Both the position numbers and the translations under genes were made by a program. From Woeseiaceae bacterium (GTDB lineage: Bacteria; Pseudomonadota; Gammaproteobacteria; Steroidobacterales; Woeseiaceae), in the NCBI GenBank assembly GCA_021773135.1, contig JAJFKP010000010.1, positions 124,001 through 188,000 of the forward strand: 64,000 bases of DNA. The letters run 5' to 3'. The notes under the pieces are model-generated. The model saw only the letters and a program-made list of their open reading frames with translations. It searched no databases and was not told the DNA's origin. Within the stretch, counting starts at the first letter, position 1. Each line of letters starts with the position of its first letter. Positions 18,397 through 26,203 of this stretch are shown here, in pieces.

Positions 18397-18458
18397 GCGC
18401 GCGTAGTACCCGTCCTCCGTTTCTGCGAGAATTGATGCCTGGCCTCCTGAGACCACTG

Positions 18459-19646
18459 ATGAACGTTACCTTGAATACCCGCGCCGCAGCCAAAAACACG
18501 ATATTCCTGACCCTGGCAGCGTTGGCATTATCCGGCTGCGCCGGCATGCAGGGAATATTTGCACCTGAGGGCGACGAGCAGGGCGACAAGTCGGACACGG
18601 TAATTCCGCTGGACAAGATGCCGCGACTTGAGCCCGTCAGTCGAAACTATTTCGAACTGCAGTCAGCTGACCAGGCTGTCATCGGCGAACCGCAGATTGT
18701 GTTCACTCGGGAGGAGAACACTTTTTCCGACCTGGCGCGCGAATACGGGCTTGGCTATGACGAGTTGGTGGCGGCGAATCCTGACATCGATCCCTGGTTG
18801 CCGGGGGCTGACACGCCGGTGCTGCTGCCGACGCAATACATAATTCCTGATGTGCCCCGCGAAGGCATCGTGCTGAATATTGCATCAAAACGACTGTTCT
18901 ATTTTCCGAAGACAGATGCAGGAGAGGTACAAACCGTACTTACTTACCCGATTGGCATTGGTCGCGTGGGTTGGGAAACGCCTCTGGGCAGTTCTGCTGT
19001 AATTGCCAAAGCGCGCGATCCGCAATGGTATGTGCCGCGTTCCGTGCGCCAGGAGCACGAGGAGCTCGGCGATCCATTGCCCGCAATTGTGCCGCCGGGT
19101 CCGGATAACCCGCTTGGCAAATTCGTGCTTAAACTCGACCTGCCGGGCTACCTGATTCATGGCACTAACCAGCCATATGGTGTTGGTATGCGGGTCAGCC
19201 ACGGTTGTGTGCGTTTGTATCCCGAGAACATCGAGCCGTTGTACGAGCTGGTGGGTCTCGGTGAATCCGTAAGCATTATTAATGAACCCTATTTGGCCGG
19301 AAGGCTGGACGGGGAGTGGTATTTCGAAGGTCATGAGCCGCTTCTGGACGACGAAGTGAGTGCTGAAGCGCACCTTGCAACAGTCCTCGCGTCCATGAGC
19401 TCGGAAGATGAAAAGTATCCTGTGGAGCTGGACGAAGCACTGGTGCATGCGGTCGCTGCCGAAGGCTTCGGCGTGCCGGTGCGTATTCAGCAAGGCGCGT
19501 CAGCGGAGGTGATGGCACGGGCCCGGGTGATCAGGAACACCGTGGTGCCGGATCCGGATATGCCGACGCTTGAGGAAGTGCGTGCATTACTGGACGAGCC
19601 TGTCGCCGAAGAGGAAGGTGCAGGACCAATCGCTGCCGATGAGTGA
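18459..19646 (+). CDS. L,D-transpeptidase (YkuD) lipoprotein
   Basis: About 395 residues. A signal peptide with lipobox LSGC is followed by a LysM-like segment (FTREENTFSDLAREYGLGYDE...), then a YkuD catalytic domain whose nucleophile lies in SHGCVRLYPENI, with the family His in LIHGTN. It belongs to the ErfK/YbiS group that attaches lipoproteins to peptidoglycan or makes 3-3 crosslinks. The C-terminal ~120 residues after the catalytic domain are acidic and not recognised. The start could also be ATG 18435; the one chosen gives a normal signal peptide. Its 3' end overlaps a small ORF. Confidence 0.9.
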   Translation: MNVTLNTRAAAKNTIFLTLAALALSGCAGMQGIFAPEGDEQGDKSDTVIPLDKMPRLEPVSRNYFELQSADQAVIGEPQIVFTREENTFSDLAREYGLGYDELVAANPDIDPWLPGADTPVLLPTQYIIPDVPREGIVLNIASKRLFYFPKTDAGEVQTVLTYPIGIGRVGWETPLGSSAVIAKARDPQWYVPRSVRQEHEELGDPLPAIVPPGPDNPLGKFVLKLDLPGYLIHGTNQPYGVGMRVSHGCVRLYPENIEPLYELVGLGESVSIINEPYLAGRLDGEWYFEGHEPLLDDEVSAEAHLATVLASMSSEDEKYPVELDEALVHAVAAEGFGVPVRIQQGASAEVMARARVIRNTVVPDPDMPTLEEVRALLDEPVAEEEGAGPIAADE

Positions 19647-19773
19647 GTGGCTCGACATCATGCTGAGCGAGATCACGCGCAAACGGGTTGAAGAACAGGC
19701 AGCGAAGGAAGAGGCTGAGCGCAGGTCGGACTCTGCCGCAAAAGACAATCCGCCGGCCGCAGAGCCACACTAA
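19639..19773 (+). CDS. Small charged protein, 44 residues
   Basis: The ATG at 19639 overlaps the last codons of the L,D-transpeptidase gene by 8 bases. The 44-residue product begins MSEWLDIMLSEITRKR and continues as a Glu/Lys/Arg/Ala-rich helix that would be soluble. Position and overlap suggest translational coupling. Short proteins with a similar start occur in other gammaproteobacteria as hypotheticals, as far as I recall; no function is known. It overlaps the PLP-enzyme gene tail to tail by four bases. Confidence 0.6.
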   Translation: MSEWLDIMLSEITRKRVEEQAAKEEAERRSDSAAKDNPPAAEPH

Positions 19774-20837
19774 CCCGAAAAGTATTGCAGGAATTCCCTC
19801 GGCAAGCTGCCGGCATCCACGGGGCGGTCAGTTGGCACATCCAGTGGTGTCGCGTTGTAGGTGTGCCAATACAGCAGATTGAGCTTGCGTGTTTCCGGCG
19901 ACTGCAGGTCCGCCAGCGCTGCGGCCAGCGTCTTACCGGTATAGGTTGTTTCCAGCGCCAGCGCCAGTTGTTCCTGGCCGAAATGAACTGCTGCGTCGCT
20001 GGCGACCGTCGCGTGCGCATAGCCGGTGCCAAAGAATTCATCTCTTAATCGAATATTCGTTCTTGCGGCAAGGTCGGTTGGTACGCTCCGGTCGAGCGCG
20101 GACATCATCGCGGCAGTCTTGTAGGTCAGCGCGCGCATCGACCCAAGGTTCGTGATCGACGTATGGGAAACGCGCACAGCGTTAACCTCCGTGTCGATGC
20201 CGCCGATTGCCAGACCGAGCGCGAGGCCAACAGCGGTGCCCATCGTACCGGTACCAACATAGAGCCTGTCGGGCGACGGAATCTCGCCGCGCTTGATTTG
20301 CTCGGTCAGTTCAAGCCCTGCCGCCACGAAACCGATGGTGCCCAACCAGGATGAGCCGCCCATAGGAATCACCCAGGTGTGCCGACCCCACAGTGCGTTA
20401 CGCAGAAGCGCTATCCGCTCGCGATACGAACCGCCGTAACAGAGCAGCTCAGTGCCATTCTCGAGATGCGCATTGAGCGTCTTGCCAATTGACGGCGTTT
20501 TGGCCTGGTGCGAGAGAAAGCAGGTGCACTCGAAACCCGCTTCCTTGGCGTACAGTGCAGTCGCCAGCGCATGGTTAGATCCAACGGCGCCGAACGTAGC
20601 GATGCGCAGTCGATGCCGCTCCGCTGCGCGCGGCAAAATGTATTCGAGTTTTCTGACCTTATTGCCGCCATACAGCGAGCCGGTCTGACTGTCGTACTTG
20701 ATTGACAATCTGTGCTCGGTATTGCCCACATAGACTTTGCGAGATTTTACCGGCGTAGGCAGCGACGCCAGGCTCATTCTCGGCAATTGGTTACCGAGAT
20801 CAGGAAAGCGATTTTTTAAATAGTCGCAGGTCGACAT
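19770..20837 (-). CDS. PLP-dependent D-cysteine desulfhydrase/ACC deaminase family
   Basis: A 355-residue fold-type II PLP enzyme. The PLP lysine is K60 in YGGNKVRKLEY and the phosphate/carboxylate-binding loop is GAVGSNHALATA, with a glycine-rich GTGTMGTAVGLALG later. These match the D-cysteine desulfhydrase/1-aminocyclopropane-1-carboxylate deaminase family; the two activities cannot be separated from sequence alone. Cytoplasmic. It is divergent from the sheath-like gene across a 109-base region containing an inverted repeat. Confidence 0.85.
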   Translation of the reverse strand: MSTCDYLKNRFPDLGNQLPRMSLASLPTPVKSRKVYVGNTEHRLSIKYDSQTGSLYGGNKVRKLEYILPRAAERHRLRIATFGAVGSNHALATALYAKEAGFECTCFLSHQAKTPSIGKTLNAHLENGTELLCYGGSYRERIALLRNALWGRHTWVIPMGGSSWLGTIGFVAAGLELTEQIKRGEIPSPDRLYVGTGTMGTAVGLALGLAIGGIDTEVNAVRVSHTSITNLGSMRALTYKTAAMMSALDRSVPTDLAARTNIRLRDEFFGTGYAHATVASDAAVHFGQEQLALALETTYTGKTLAAALADLQSPETRKLNLLYWHTYNATPLDVPTDRPVDAGSLPREFLQYFSG

Positions 20838-20847
20838 GTGACGCTAC

Positions 20848-20864
20848 TGTCAAGAATTCTGACA
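20848..20864. promoter_or_regulatory. Inverted repeat between divergent genes
   Basis: TGTCAAGAATTCTGACA has 5-bp arms TGTCA/TGACA around AGAATTC. It lies in the divergent region between the PLP-enzyme gene and the sheath-like gene, where a regulator site would be expected. No clear -35/-10 pair accompanies it. Confidence 0.3.
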
Positions 20865-20946
20865 ACGATAGCATCTTAACTCGCGAATCTTTAGAATGCG
20901 TCCACGTTGTCTGCTCAGGCAGCGTTACGTTAACGGAGTATCGAGC

Positions 20947-22479
20947 TTGTCTGATACTGGAGACCGGGGAATTACGGTCACCGAAATTGCGGCGATGGAT
21001 CAGCCCATCGACGCGTCGCATGAAACCACGGCTGCTTTTGTAGGACGTGCGCTTCGCGGCCCCCTCGATACACCGCTCCTCATTAGCAGTTTTACCGAGT
21101 TTCGTCGTCGCTTCGGCGGAGAATGGTCCGGCAGCCAGCTGAGTTCTGCGGTCGAGCAGTTTTTCGATCACGGTGGCAAGCAGGCCTATATTGTCAGAGT
21201 TGCCAACAATGCACGCGGCGCGATGCTTTGCCTCCCGGCCTCACACGGGGTGCTTGTCTTAAAGACCATGGATCCGGGGTCGACGGAATTTGTCAGGGCA
21301 GCAGTCGACTACGACGGTATTGACGAAAAGAATCAAGAACGATTCAATTTGGTTCTGCAGCGTCTTGCACCGGATAGCGGCCTGATTCTTGATCAGGAGA
21401 TTTACCGAAATTTAACCTGCGGCAGGAACAAAGAGGGCAGCATAGAAGATGCGCTCCTTGGTTCGTCGCTGGTGCGGGTGGAAGAACCGCTGCCGCCGCA
21501 CCGTCCGAAGCAAACTGATGCGGATTACATCGATCCGGCCCAGTCCGGAACCGACGGACTGACGCTTTCGGATTACGATCTGATCGGTTCCGCCAGTCGC
21601 GGCAGTGGCATATTCGCTTTAAACCAGGCCGAACATTTCGATCTGCTGTATTTGCCGCCGCCGGAAATCGGGAAAGTGCCGGGTCCAGCAGCGGTTTTGG
21701 CAGCGGAACTCTACTGCCGCAAGCGGGGTGCCATGTTGATTCTCGATCCCCCTGACAGCTGGAAAAATGCGCATGACGCGATCCACGGCGTGCGGGATGG
21801 AGGCTACGCAAATTCTGACGTCATTTCATATTTTCCACGCATGTACTACCGCAAGGATGACGGTTCACCGCCGGCAACCGTCGGAGGCGCGATTGCCGGA
21901 TTACTGTGCAAGCTCGATCGAACACGTGGCCCGTGGGAATACCTGGATCAGCGTGGCTTTACACTCAGCAGGAAGCTGGTGCCCGCGATCGACATCAGCA
22001 GCGACGATGCCCATTTGCTGGTTAAAGAAGGTCTGAACGTCATCGCAGGAAATGTTCCCGGGCACGCAATGTTCTGCGGTTCGGTGACGCTGGCGCATGG
22101 CACCCAGGTGGGCGACGAGTTTGCAAGCATGACGACGCGCAGATTATGCCTGGCAATAACGAACGCGATCGACCGGGCGACACGCTGGGCTGTGTTTGAG
22201 CCCAATGCCTTGTCAGTGGCTGAACGGGTCGTGAACCAGGTACACGCTTACATGTGTTCGTTATCGGATGCAGGTGCCTTCACGGATAGTCATTTCATGG
22301 TGCAGTGTGATACCGGCGCGCGTCACGAACCCATTGACCCCGATCGCGGCATTACGATACTGCTTGCGTTTCACCCCAGCGGATCTGCCGAATCTGTGTC
22401 GCTTACTTTGCATCAATCCGTTTCCGGCTGCCGCGTGTCGAAAACGGCATTTGCTCCCGTCCGGGCGGAAGTTGCCTGA
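20947..22479 (+). CDS. Contractile tail sheath-like protein, orphan
   Basis: About 510 residues. The N-terminus resembles tail sheath proteins: GITVTEIAAMDQPIDA... followed by TTAAFVGRALRGPLDTPLLISSFTEFRRRFGG matches the sheath pattern 'P-G-V-Y-V-E-E ... TAAFVG ... GP...P...V-S...F...FGG'. The C-terminal part (WRWAVFEPN-type: RATRWAVFEPNALSVAERVVNQVHAYM) matches the sheath C-terminal domain. The start is placed at TTG 20947, 8 bases after ACGGAG; ATG 20896 is the alternative. No tube, baseplate, spike, ATPase or lysis gene is nearby, so it is not part of an intact phage tail, T6SS or eCIS here. Role unknown. Confidence 0.8.
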   Translation: MSDTGDRGITVTEIAAMDQPIDASHETTAAFVGRALRGPLDTPLLISSFTEFRRRFGGEWSGSQLSSAVEQFFDHGGKQAYIVRVANNARGAMLCLPASHGVLVLKTMDPGSTEFVRAAVDYDGIDEKNQERFNLVLQRLAPDSGLILDQEIYRNLTCGRNKEGSIEDALLGSSLVRVEEPLPPHRPKQTDADYIDPAQSGTDGLTLSDYDLIGSASRGSGIFALNQAEHFDLLYLPPPEIGKVPGPAAVLAAELYCRKRGAMLILDPPDSWKNAHDAIHGVRDGGYANSDVISYFPRMYYRKDDGSPPATVGGAIAGLLCKLDRTRGPWEYLDQRGFTLSRKLVPAIDISSDDAHLLVKEGLNVIAGNVPGHAMFCGSVTLAHGTQVGDEFASMTTRRLCLAITNAIDRATRWAVFEPNALSVAERVVNQVHAYMCSLSDAGAFTDSHFMVQCDTGARHEPIDPDRGITILLAFHPSGSAESVSLTLHQSVSGCRVSKTAFAPVRAEVA

Positions 22480-22508: not shown

Positions 22509-25500
22509 TCAGCTGCGATCGACATTTAATTCAGGCTGACCGAAGCCGCCGCCACCCGGCGTTTCAATGACGAACGTGTCACCTTTCTGCATGCGTACAG
22601 TTGCGGTGCCCGAGAGTTCTTCAACGCTGCCGTCCGCCCGCTCAATCCAGTTGGCGCCTGTTTTCGCGTTGCCGCCGCCGGCGAGACCAAAAGGGGCCAC
22701 TCGACGGTGGTTCGACAGGATGGCGACTTCGACGGGTTCAAGGAAACGCACCCTGCGAACGGTACCATTGCCGCCGCGCCACTTGCCGACCCCGCCCGAG
22801 TTGGGCCGAATTGCAAACGATTCGACGATGACGGGAAACGACTGCTCGAAGACCTCCACATCGGTCATGCGTGAATTAGTCATATGTGTATGCACGGCAT
22901 CGGCACCGTCAAAACCGGGACCGGCGCCAGCACCGCCACATATTGTTTCGTAGTACTGCACGCTGGCATTGCCAAACGTGAAATTATTCATCGTTCCCTG
23001 CGAGGCGGCGAGGGCGCCAAGCGCGCCGTAGAGGCAGTCCGTTACGCACTGCGACGTCTCCACGTTGCCGGCGACGACGGCGGCCGGGTAGGACGGACTT
23101 AACAGGCTGCCCTTCGGTATGCGTATATCAAGTGGTTCCAGGCAGCCTTCATTCATCGGGATGTTTTCGCGAATCAGGCTGCGGAAGACGTACAGCACTG
23201 CCGCCCGGGTGACCGCTTCGGGCGCATTGAAATTGGAGGCTGACTGCCCCGATGTGCCTGCAAAATCGATCGTTGCCTGACTCAGTTCCTCATCGACATC
23301 GATGCTGGCACAAATGACTTCGCCTGAATCAAGCTCGTACTCGAAGCTGCCGTTCTGCAGCGAATCCAGCAGTCTGCGCACACTGGTTGCCGCATTTTCG
23401 CGCACGAACTTGAGGTAGGACTGCACCGTCTGCATGCCGTAACGGTCAATCGCTTTTTCGAGTTGCCGAATCCCCTGCTGGTTGGCGGCAAGCTGCGCTT
23501 TCAGGTCAGCAATATTCTGCTGCGGATTCCGCGATGGATACTTCGCACCAGCGAGCTGCGCCCTGGTTTCATCCAGCTGGAATAACCCCTCGCGCACGAG
23601 CTTGAAGTTGTCGATCAGTACGCCTTCTTCATCGATGTGATGACTGGCGGAGGGCATCGACCCCGGCGTTATGCCGCCAATGTCCGCGTGATGCGCGCGT
23701 GATGCCAGGTAGAACTCTGGCCTGTCGGACCCGGCGTACCATGGGGTTACAACGGTGATGTCAGGTAGATGTGTACCGCCGTTGTACGGCGAATTCAGCA
23801 TGATCGCGTCGCCAGGTTTCAGGTCAGGTCCGCTGGCAGCGATTACGCTGCGAACGCTTTCGCCCATCGAGCCTAGGTGCACAGGCATATGCGGAGCATT
23901 CGACACCAATCGTCCGTCCGCATCGAACAGCGCACAGGAAAAGTCCAGTCGTTCGCGAATATTCACCGAGATCGCCGTGTTCTGCAGCACCACGCCCATC
24001 TGTTCCGCAATGTGCATGAACAGTCGATTAAATACCTCGAGTCGGATCGGGTCAGGTGCAGATTCATCTGCCGTTACCTGCATCGCCATGCCTCGTTCTT
24101 TGCTTAGCAACAGGTGGCCGACCTCGTTAACCGTAACCGTCCAGCCGGCATCCACGACCGTGGTGCCGTTAGGTTCAGCGATAATTGCCGGACCGACAAC
24201 GGTTGCGCCGGCGCCGAGGTTTTCACGCTGGTACACAGGCACGTCGCTCCACGCACCGTCTGTCCACATCCTGCTGCTGCCAGCGGGTTCGACCTGTGAC
24301 GCAGGCGCAATCGGCAGATCAGAGAATGCCTGCTCGATGCCAGTGCCGTCGACACGAGCAATGGCAATAATCAACTGCTCCGCGTCAGGTTCCGCGCCAA
24401 ACCGGCTGCGGTAAGTCGAGGCAAACGAATCAACCATTGCATCGGCTACTCCAAAGCCAACATCCAGAATAGTGTCCGAACCCCTGATGCGTAACCCTAA
24501 GCTAATGCTGAACTCGCGGTTCGAAGCAGGAACACGCTGTTCCGCCAGAGACTTGTTGCATTCATCCTGCAGCCGTTCGACTTCTGGGCGAAGATCTGCC
24601 AGCGCCTTGTCACAGAAATCGACGTCAATGGATTGCTGGCGTTCGACGCGAATATGCGACAAGCCCATGCCATAAGCTGACAGGACGCCGGCCAGTGGGT
24701 GCACCCAGACCTGGCTTATATCGAGAACTTCGGCAACCCGGCAAGCGTGCTGCCCGCCGGCGCCGCCGAAGCAGCACAGTACGAAGTCACGCACGTCTTC
24801 GCCACGCTCAATCGTGATTTTGCGAATGGCATTGGCCATGCTCTCTACTGCGATCGTCAGGAATCCCTCTGCAACTTCTTCCGGAATCACTGCGTCAACT
24901 TCTCCTGCGAGGGCCGCGAACCGCTGGCGGACAACGTCGGTATCCAGCGGCTGATCAGCATGTTCTCCAAAAACAGATGGAAAGCACTCGACCGGAATTC
25001 GTCCGAGCAGCACGTTCGCATCAGTGACTGTCAGCGGTCCGTTGCGTCGATAACAAGCGGGTCCTGGATTTGCGCCCGCTGATCCGGGCCCAACCTGGAA
25101 GCGCTCGTCCCGGTAGTCGAGAATAGAACCGCCGCCGGCCGCAATGGTGTGGATTTTCATCATCGGTGCACGCAGGCGGACTCCGGCAACTTCCGAGTCA
25201 TTGCTGCGCTCGTAGACACCGCTCCAGGCGGAAACGTCCGTCGACGTGCCGCCCATGTCGAAGCCGATGAGTTTCTGGAAGCCCGCCTTTGATGCCGTTT
25301 CGACCATGCCAACAACGCCCGCCGCCGGCCCGGATAGCACGCTGTTCTTGCCGCGAAAATTATCGGCCAGGGTAAGGCCGCCATTGCTTTGCATAAAAAG
25401 CAGGCGTTCAGGTGTGGCTAAATCTGCCAGTTCCGACTGCAGCCCGGATATGTAATTGTTGAGCACTGGCGTAAGGTAGGCGTCCGCGAGCGTCGTTTCA

Positions 25501-26099
25501 CCGCGGCTGACGAATTTGACCAGCGATTCGACATCGTGCGAGACGGATACCTGGTCAAAGCCGAGTGTCGTTGCGATTTCTGCAATTGCGCTTTCGTGAG
25601 CCGGATATCGATAGCCGTGTACGAGACAGATGGCAACAGCGCGCAGTCCGGCATCCCGGCACCGCTGCAGAGAGCGACGAATGTGCGCATCATCCAGCTC
25701 GCACAATACGGTTCCCTGCGCATCGATTCGCTCCCGCGCTTCGATGACCCGGTCATAGACAGGTTCCGGCTTGCGAATATGCAGCGCAAAAATATCGGGG
25801 CGATTCTGATATCCAATGGCAAGTGCGTCTCTAAAACCAGGCGTTACGACCAGCACCGTAGGCGTGCCGGCCCGTTCCAAAAGTGCATTGGTCGCGACCG
25901 TCGTTCCCATTTTGACGGCTTCTATGACATCCGTTCCGGCAATAAACCGCCGAATGCCTTCAGCAGCGGCGTCTTTGTAGTGTTCCGGATTGTCCGAGAG
26001 CAGTTTCGCGGTCTGCAGGCTGCCGTCCGGACAGAGTGCGACGACGTCGGTAAAAGTGCCTCCGCGATCAATCCAGAATTGCCAACTTTTCTTTCTCAC
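22509..26099 (-). CDS. Hydantoinase/5-oxoprolinase, fused HyuA and HyuB domains
   Basis: About 1196 residues. The N-terminal half is HyuA-like (ASKHA ATPase fold; [14 protein letters not shown] at the start, [13 protein letters not shown] and [12 protein letters not shown] further on), and the C-terminal half, from about residue 690, is HyuB-like ([17 protein letters not shown]..., [15 protein letters not shown]). Fused forms include ATP-dependent 5-oxoprolinases, which open pyroglutamate to glutamate; hydantoin or other cyclic amides are possible. I start it at GTG 26099, which gives the family N-terminus; ATG 26153 is also open. Divergent from the ureohydrolase operon and convergent with the sheath-like gene. 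Confidence 0.9.
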
Positions 26100-26203
26100 G
26101 GCAACGAAGGTAACGGAAAAATCGCCGATAAACACGCCAATCCCGGTTATCATTCCTGCTCACTGGTCAGTGTGTCGCGCGATGTTTTTCGGGGAAGCTA
26201 CAA

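Follow-up and report, generated by a model that had tools for sequence, protein, structure and literature searches.

The gene at 20947-22479 (+) of the window encodes a complete homologue of contractile tail sheaths and stands alone. By the window is meant the whole stretch of 64,000 nucleotides that was analyzed, which comes from the genome of a Woeseiaceae bacterium (G000). The fold family is a known one, yet this stand-alone, order-wide gene is accompanied neither by the parts that define an eCIS nor by those of a prophage tail. Phage-tail parts are known as domesticated whole machines. Here, most of the species sampled from the order have retained a single part as one gene, without the machine and with its conservation pattern turned inside out. 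On balance, we favor the view that domestication turned an ancient eCIS sheath into a scaffold or adaptor that stands alone, is probably cytoplasmic and would no longer drive injection. This raises the question of what a sheath fold does alone, and the cultured members of the order allow testing.

No earlier account of a stand-alone, order-wide sheath was found in the literature searched, outside of which lay bioRxiv preprints and most subscription journals. One large survey of contractile systems, as its accessible text describes it, excluded candidates that had no baseplate, tube or sheath-initiator genes (PMC12210884). Genes like the orphan sheath fall outside such surveys by design, since loci without baseplate or tube are removed.

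Identity and Predicted Structure

The reading frame is open for 510 codons and begins with TTG. This TTG at 20947 was preferred over an upstream ATG at 20896 because it is the start common to many family relatives (TTGTCAGAT...) and is preceded by a GGAG-type ribosome site. Between the sheath start and the divergent PLP gene lie 109 bp (20838..20946, +), which contain the ribosome site and a TAGAAT box (20892-20897) that recurs upstream of the gene in many relatives. In many relatives of family f1, the start region was also found to contain an ATCTGAC / GTCAGAT inverted repeat; the ribosome site falls within the loop of the hairpin, and its 3' arm includes the TTG start. The window's genome itself (20902-20958) does not have this 3' arm. 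At least five predicted pairs with upstream bases were counted in 31 of 40 f1 rows, a count in which the window's genome appears twice and which has no shuffle control.

The initial annotation read the product as a full sheath of about 510 residues with N-terminal and C-terminal sheath elements, and this reading is confirmed. The tail sheath family phrog_23 (PHROG) matches residues 24-473 (E 3.4e-32) when the ORF is read from 20896, at a length of 527 residues. A single-sequence phmmer search matched 8bky, the CIS sheath of S. coelicolor, at E 2.5e-19. A profile of 30 orthologues run against PDB sequences matched Cis2 (E 4e-67), and the sheaths Pvc2, Afp2, R-pyocin and T4 gp18 were matched as well. 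Sequence homology in both the N-terminal and the C-terminal sheath regions places the protein in the contractile tail sheath superfamily. Pfam is a poor detector for these orphan sheaths and would miss the window protein on its own. Phage_sheath_1C matched it at E 8e-5 with 23.1 bits, below the gathering cut-off of 26.9, and among three more orphans that were scanned, one was just above this cut-off and two had no match. NCBIfam matched neither the window protein nor the Streptomyces eCIS sheath. A scan of viral contigs with a Steroidobacteraceae orthologue as query found no relative.

The window protein is predicted to keep the sheath fold. An alignment of 34 sequences gave an AlphaFold model with the sheath fold at pLDDT 83.2 and pTM 0.84 (an alignment of nine gave pLDDT 44.9), with low pLDDT at the N-terminus. 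When the model was compared with the PDB by Foldseek, 9ezm came first (E 6e-26), followed by 3lml and the P1 and T4 tails. The top-listed PDB matches are sheath proteins or chains of tail or CIS complexes, and the named matches in the viral library are mostly tail sheaths. The outcome that the initial annotation had named as fatal to its reading, a structure comparison with no sheath fold, did not occur.

Absence of a Contractile Machine

The gene was described in the initial annotation as an orphan within view, and queries for tube, cap and eCIS ATPase indeed had no match in the window. The search for tube and baseplate genes that it called for was extended to the whole genome, which is 99.7% complete and has one copy of the sheath. 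There was no match in G000 to PF06841 (tube, Phage_T4_gp19), PF04865 (Baseplate_J), PF14065 (cap; DUF4255, Pvc16_N) or PF04965 (gp25/TssE). The tube, baseplate and cap genes by which an eCIS is recognized are not found in G000. Of a type VI secretion system, the TssE component (gp25/TssE) is likewise without a match there. A relative assembled as a single contig (G017) had no tube, Baseplate_J, cap or gp25 match either. As a positive control, PF06841 found the tube in six of the six eCIS genomes run for that purpose; the absence of a tube is an absence of this known family, whose profile would not reach tubes unrelated to it.

Among 60 relatives, matches were found to PF06841 in four, PF04865 in two, PF14065 in three and PF04965 in six, five of these six being above the cut-off. 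Weak PF06841 matches were also present in G019 and G057. With one eCIS tube protein as query, a search of lower sensitivity than one with a profile, a match was found in 8 of the 296 genomes sampled from the order and in none of the other 288. Of 82 orphan neighborhoods chosen for inspection, none had a tube or cap match (the window is included, and L037 and L187 are apparently one stretch). The sole non-sheath query that matched in them was an unidentified ORF of a CIS locus, with three matches. The initial annotation had also allowed for an ordinary prophage tail just outside the visible region. No such tail was found by the tube and cap queries in the 82 neighborhoods, and the annotated neighbors are not tail-like.

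It had further been suggested that the gene could belong to a scattered extracellular contractile system with its other genes elsewhere in the genome. The protein does have the fold of a sheath, and a few genomes of the order carry CIS parts, namely the eight with a tube match and the weak matches of G019 and G057. Against this, none of the machine genes was matched in G000 or in the single-contig G017, and a single tube protein used as query found no match in 288 of the order's 296 genomes. In addition, the CIS clusters of G021 and G043, the two CIS carriers inspected, have their own, different sheaths. A scattered system was rejected on these grounds and is very improbable. The clusters in G021 and G043 (L074, L075) contain two sheath-like and two tube genes each, and one sheath frame in each cluster is very long, at 990 and 1141 residues.

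Sheaths with and without a Tube

Sheaths outside the order were sampled in 369 genomes of the class and in 398 genomes of the phylum. The tube adjoins the sheath in all of the ten best class loci outside the order, and it lies within short flanks in 22 of 25 class loci. The three exceptions are G342, which has tubes in its genome, and G249 and G094, which have no PF06841 match. Across eleven loci outside the order, the eCIS tube is 51-83% identical to the Streptomyces tube. Besides G000, two of the 398 phylum genomes matched at E <= 1e-60. One of these loci (L255) has an adjoining tube, and the other genome, G786 (E 5e-92), has no PF06841 match. The nearest intact systems found outside the order are gammaproteobacterial, Ensifer and Streptomyces eCIS sheaths (L110-L121), whose long alignments with the window protein have an identity of about 25-33%. 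A tube gene adjoins each of them, and their arm and wall domain are strongly conserved.

Solitary sheaths exist elsewhere too, and they may arise repeatedly. What is special here is a fixed, order-wide one. G027 has a second, independent solitary sheath (L071:9188-10708) in which almost every eCIS motif is intact. Neither a tube nor a cap match lies nearby, and PF06841 has no match in the genome. G786, from another family of the class, has a solitary sheath (L256:9233-11463) with largely intact eCIS motifs. It adjoins a 201-residue ORF that, on visual inspection, resembles a degenerate AAA ATPase of an eCIS. The sheath-like gene in G094 (L258:8942-10123) encodes 393 residues.

Distribution and Inheritance

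A profile of the orthologues matched 232 of 296 sampled genomes of the order, in 57 of 68 genera, at E <= 1e-10, and by row count 225 of the 232 matches were at E < 1e-100. The order includes the Steroidobacteraceae, from whose MAGs two of nine named orthologues come. Most of the matched genomes have one copy, and a few have two (G632, G650). Damaged copies are few: matches span stops in G546, G575 and G005, and a fragment is present in G598. The misses listed include many genomes of small size (1.1-2.0 Mb) and those listed for f12, f13 and f14; another 44 genomes with no match lie outside this list. The sampled genomes of f8 and f16 have other sheaths only, or none.

A tree of 81 orphan sheaths was built by a quick method, and in it all eight of the multi-row families listed form one clade each. 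The family labels need 10 changes on this tree, and 10 is the minimum possible. Compared with eCIS sheaths, again by a quick method, the orphans form a single clade with an SH-aLRT of 99. The tree, the shared gene order and the distribution show that the sheath gene is old and vertically inherited in most of the order and is not local debris.

The protein could instead be a decoy or immunity protein that poisons the assembly of contractile phage tails, tailocins or T6SS. By general reasoning, a structural homologue that occurs alone could exert a dominant-negative effect. Such a role is unlikely, as the gene was inherited vertically in most genomes of many families and not by patchy transfer, and the parts that would be needed for co-assembly are those worst conserved. 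PADLOC, which covers defense systems described by 2023 only, had no match to the window protein.

Conservation and Selection

The 81 orphans were compared with 21 eCIS sheaths by mean majority frequency, with 200 draws of 21 orphans. The comparison was confined to ORFs shorter than 600 residues, and there are no rows for L118, L121 and L209. With 21 members, the eCIS set is small, and part of it comes from metagenome contigs labelled as viral. Judged from this alignment, conservation is inverted in the orphans: the arm and the C-terminal wall domain are worst kept, and the middle is better kept. The N-terminal arm or linker (codons 1-27, 20947..21027, +) has a mean majority frequency of 0.41 in orphans versus 0.78 in eCIS sheaths, where it is the best conserved part. 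The C-terminal wall domain (codons 311-500, 21877..22446, +), whose fold is predicted to be kept, has 0.46 versus 0.73. For the middle region (codons 93-215, 21223..21591, +) the values are 0.59 versus 0.41. The remaining segments have 0.63 versus 0.62 (residues 28-92) and 0.54 versus 0.50 (residues 216-310). Overall diversity is higher in the orphans, with a mean pairwise identity of 0.38 versus 0.49 in the eCIS sheaths.

The motifs PGVY, RGVWKAPAG, NDEPLW, TTTQxDI and PAEFV are nearly fixed in eCIS sheaths and variable in orphans, and the last four are missing from the window protein. Several of the eroded C-terminal motif positions are still kept in close to half of the orphans. In the middle region, R117, D121, N134, R139, Q150, E151 and P187 are identical in 81 of 81 orphans, and a set consisting of R117, D121, D123, N134, Q138, R139, Q150, R186, D209, Y210 and D211 is nearly or wholly invariant. 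At the positions of the latter set, the eCIS majority frequency is 0.24-0.76, and the majority is partly another letter.

The accessible text on the Streptomyces sheath Cis2 states that the extended sheath is locked through insertions in its N-terminal linker, and that domain 3 lies on the outside and is not resolved (PMC10066040). The middle region was therefore matched to domain 3 by alignment, and it is probably this outer domain. Given the locking linker and the outer domain of Cis2, the changed parts are probably those that hold and move the lattice, and the kept part is probably the old outer surface.

In 21 related, non-independent pairs with dS < 1, dN/dS was 0.095-0.194; four further pairs had dS > 1 or were saturated. 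The C-terminal part had an omega of 0.10-0.28 in the same 21 pairs, so it is still under purifying selection. Omega was lower in the middle than in the C-terminal part in 14 of 21 pairs and higher in seven (three f9 pairs and four others). The inversion thus does not show in all lineages at short time scales.

These values bear on whether the gene is what decay has left of an ancestral eCIS or prophage. As decay would have it, no other part of the machine remains, and stops or fragments occur in a few genomes. However, the frame is open in nearly all of the matches listed, omega is 0.1-0.2 and some residues are identical in 81 of 81 orphans. Decay was rejected because of the purifying selection, the open frames and the invariant residues, and it is hardly credible. 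The initial annotation had proposed a domesticated sheath with a new structural role. Domestication is strongly supported by vertical inheritance, the usually single copy, purifying selection and the lack of a machine; the new role itself is one that we infer.

The protein could also form a sheath-only polymer, in which self-assembled sheath-like tubes or rings would serve as a cytoplasmic structural element. AlphaFold and Foldseek predict a whole sheath fold, the C-terminal domain is still constrained and some orphan families keep part of its motifs. That L071 in G027 and L256 in G786 are solitary and yet have largely intact lattice motifs indicates that a lone sheath may be useful. A sheath-only polymer is possible and yet doubtful, since conservation is worst in the C-terminal region and in the N-terminal linker, where the Cis2 lattice is locked, and the linker sequence is unlike that of eCIS sheaths in L077 (f3) and L069 (f15).

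Proposed Role and Comparison with Known Systems

Under the domestication that we favor, a Streptomyces-type (Cis2-like) eCIS sheath would have ended up as one chromosomal gene when this gammaproteobacterial order was still young, with the eCIS as the probable starting point. The gene has been passed on vertically within the order. The protein is most likely cytoplasmic, as no signal peptide was seen by eye. It would not take part in injection because there is no tube, baseplate or cap for it to work with. The sheath fold may be retained as a scaffold, and the canonical locking of the lattice and the contact with the tube may have been given up. A cellular partner may be bound through the formerly outward middle domain, as the inverted conservation suggests, by a monomer, a ring or a short sheath-only polymer. 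We give about even chances to the fuller proposal that the sheath was exapted once as a near-universal, order-wide single-gene protein, in which injection was dropped, a new binding surface arose on the once-outward domain and a tube-free scaffold took on a cellular role, possibly at the envelope.

The window protein is homologous to Cis2 of the cytoplasmic CIS of S. coelicolor (PDB 8BKY/8BL4) over profile positions 1-92 and 157-505, and the predicted fold is the same. Cis2, however, is described as working around the tube Cis1a (PMC10066040), whereas the window protein has no tube, its linker and C-terminal motifs are eroded and its middle is conserved. The first fold match to the model, at 9EZM, is the haloarchaeal CIS sheath of H. 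borinquense. That sheath is described as belonging to a complete contractile machine (PMC11566945), and the window sheath stands alone.

In rhapidosomes and polysheath, a sheath is present without a working tube, in particles that are derived from whole tails. Particles are what is known there, whereas the window sheath is known from its gene alone.

Gene Neighborhood

The initial annotation placed the gene between a PLP enzyme and a hydantoinase. Pfam identifies these as a divergent PALP enzyme upstream (19770-20837, -) and a convergent hydantoinase A/B fusion downstream (22509-26153, -). With a divergent gene on one side and a convergent gene on the other, the sheath gene is probably on its own transcript. 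The annotated neighbors of the sheath are metabolic, peptidase, envelope and regulatory genes. Whether the same neighbors are conserved in relatives had been raised as a check, and the answer is divided. The gene order is partly common, in f1 and f15 and to some degree in f6, but the presence of the PLP enzyme and of the hydantoinase varies from family to family, and a functional operon with these neighbors was rejected. The order radical SAM, S49 peptidase, M48, (methyltransferase), L,D-transpeptidase and sheath is recognizable in f1 and f15 and partly in f6.

In the window, a gene annotated as an L,D-transpeptidase lies upstream of the sheath on the same strand (18432-19646, +). This neighbor points weakly to the cell envelope or wall. 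A tie of the sheath to the cell wall through it may be kept as a weak lead, because the L,D-transpeptidase recurs in six families but none of the f4, f5, f7, f9 and f11 loci (1, 2, 1, 3 and 6 loci; 5 of 11 families) has it close to the sheath. It is still upstream of the sheath in f10, f2 and f3. On the same strand and at most six genes upstream, it was found in 21 of 24 loci in f1, 15 of 17 in f10, 9 of 11 in f15, 3 of 3 in f2, 1 of 1 in f3 and 2 of 5 in f6.
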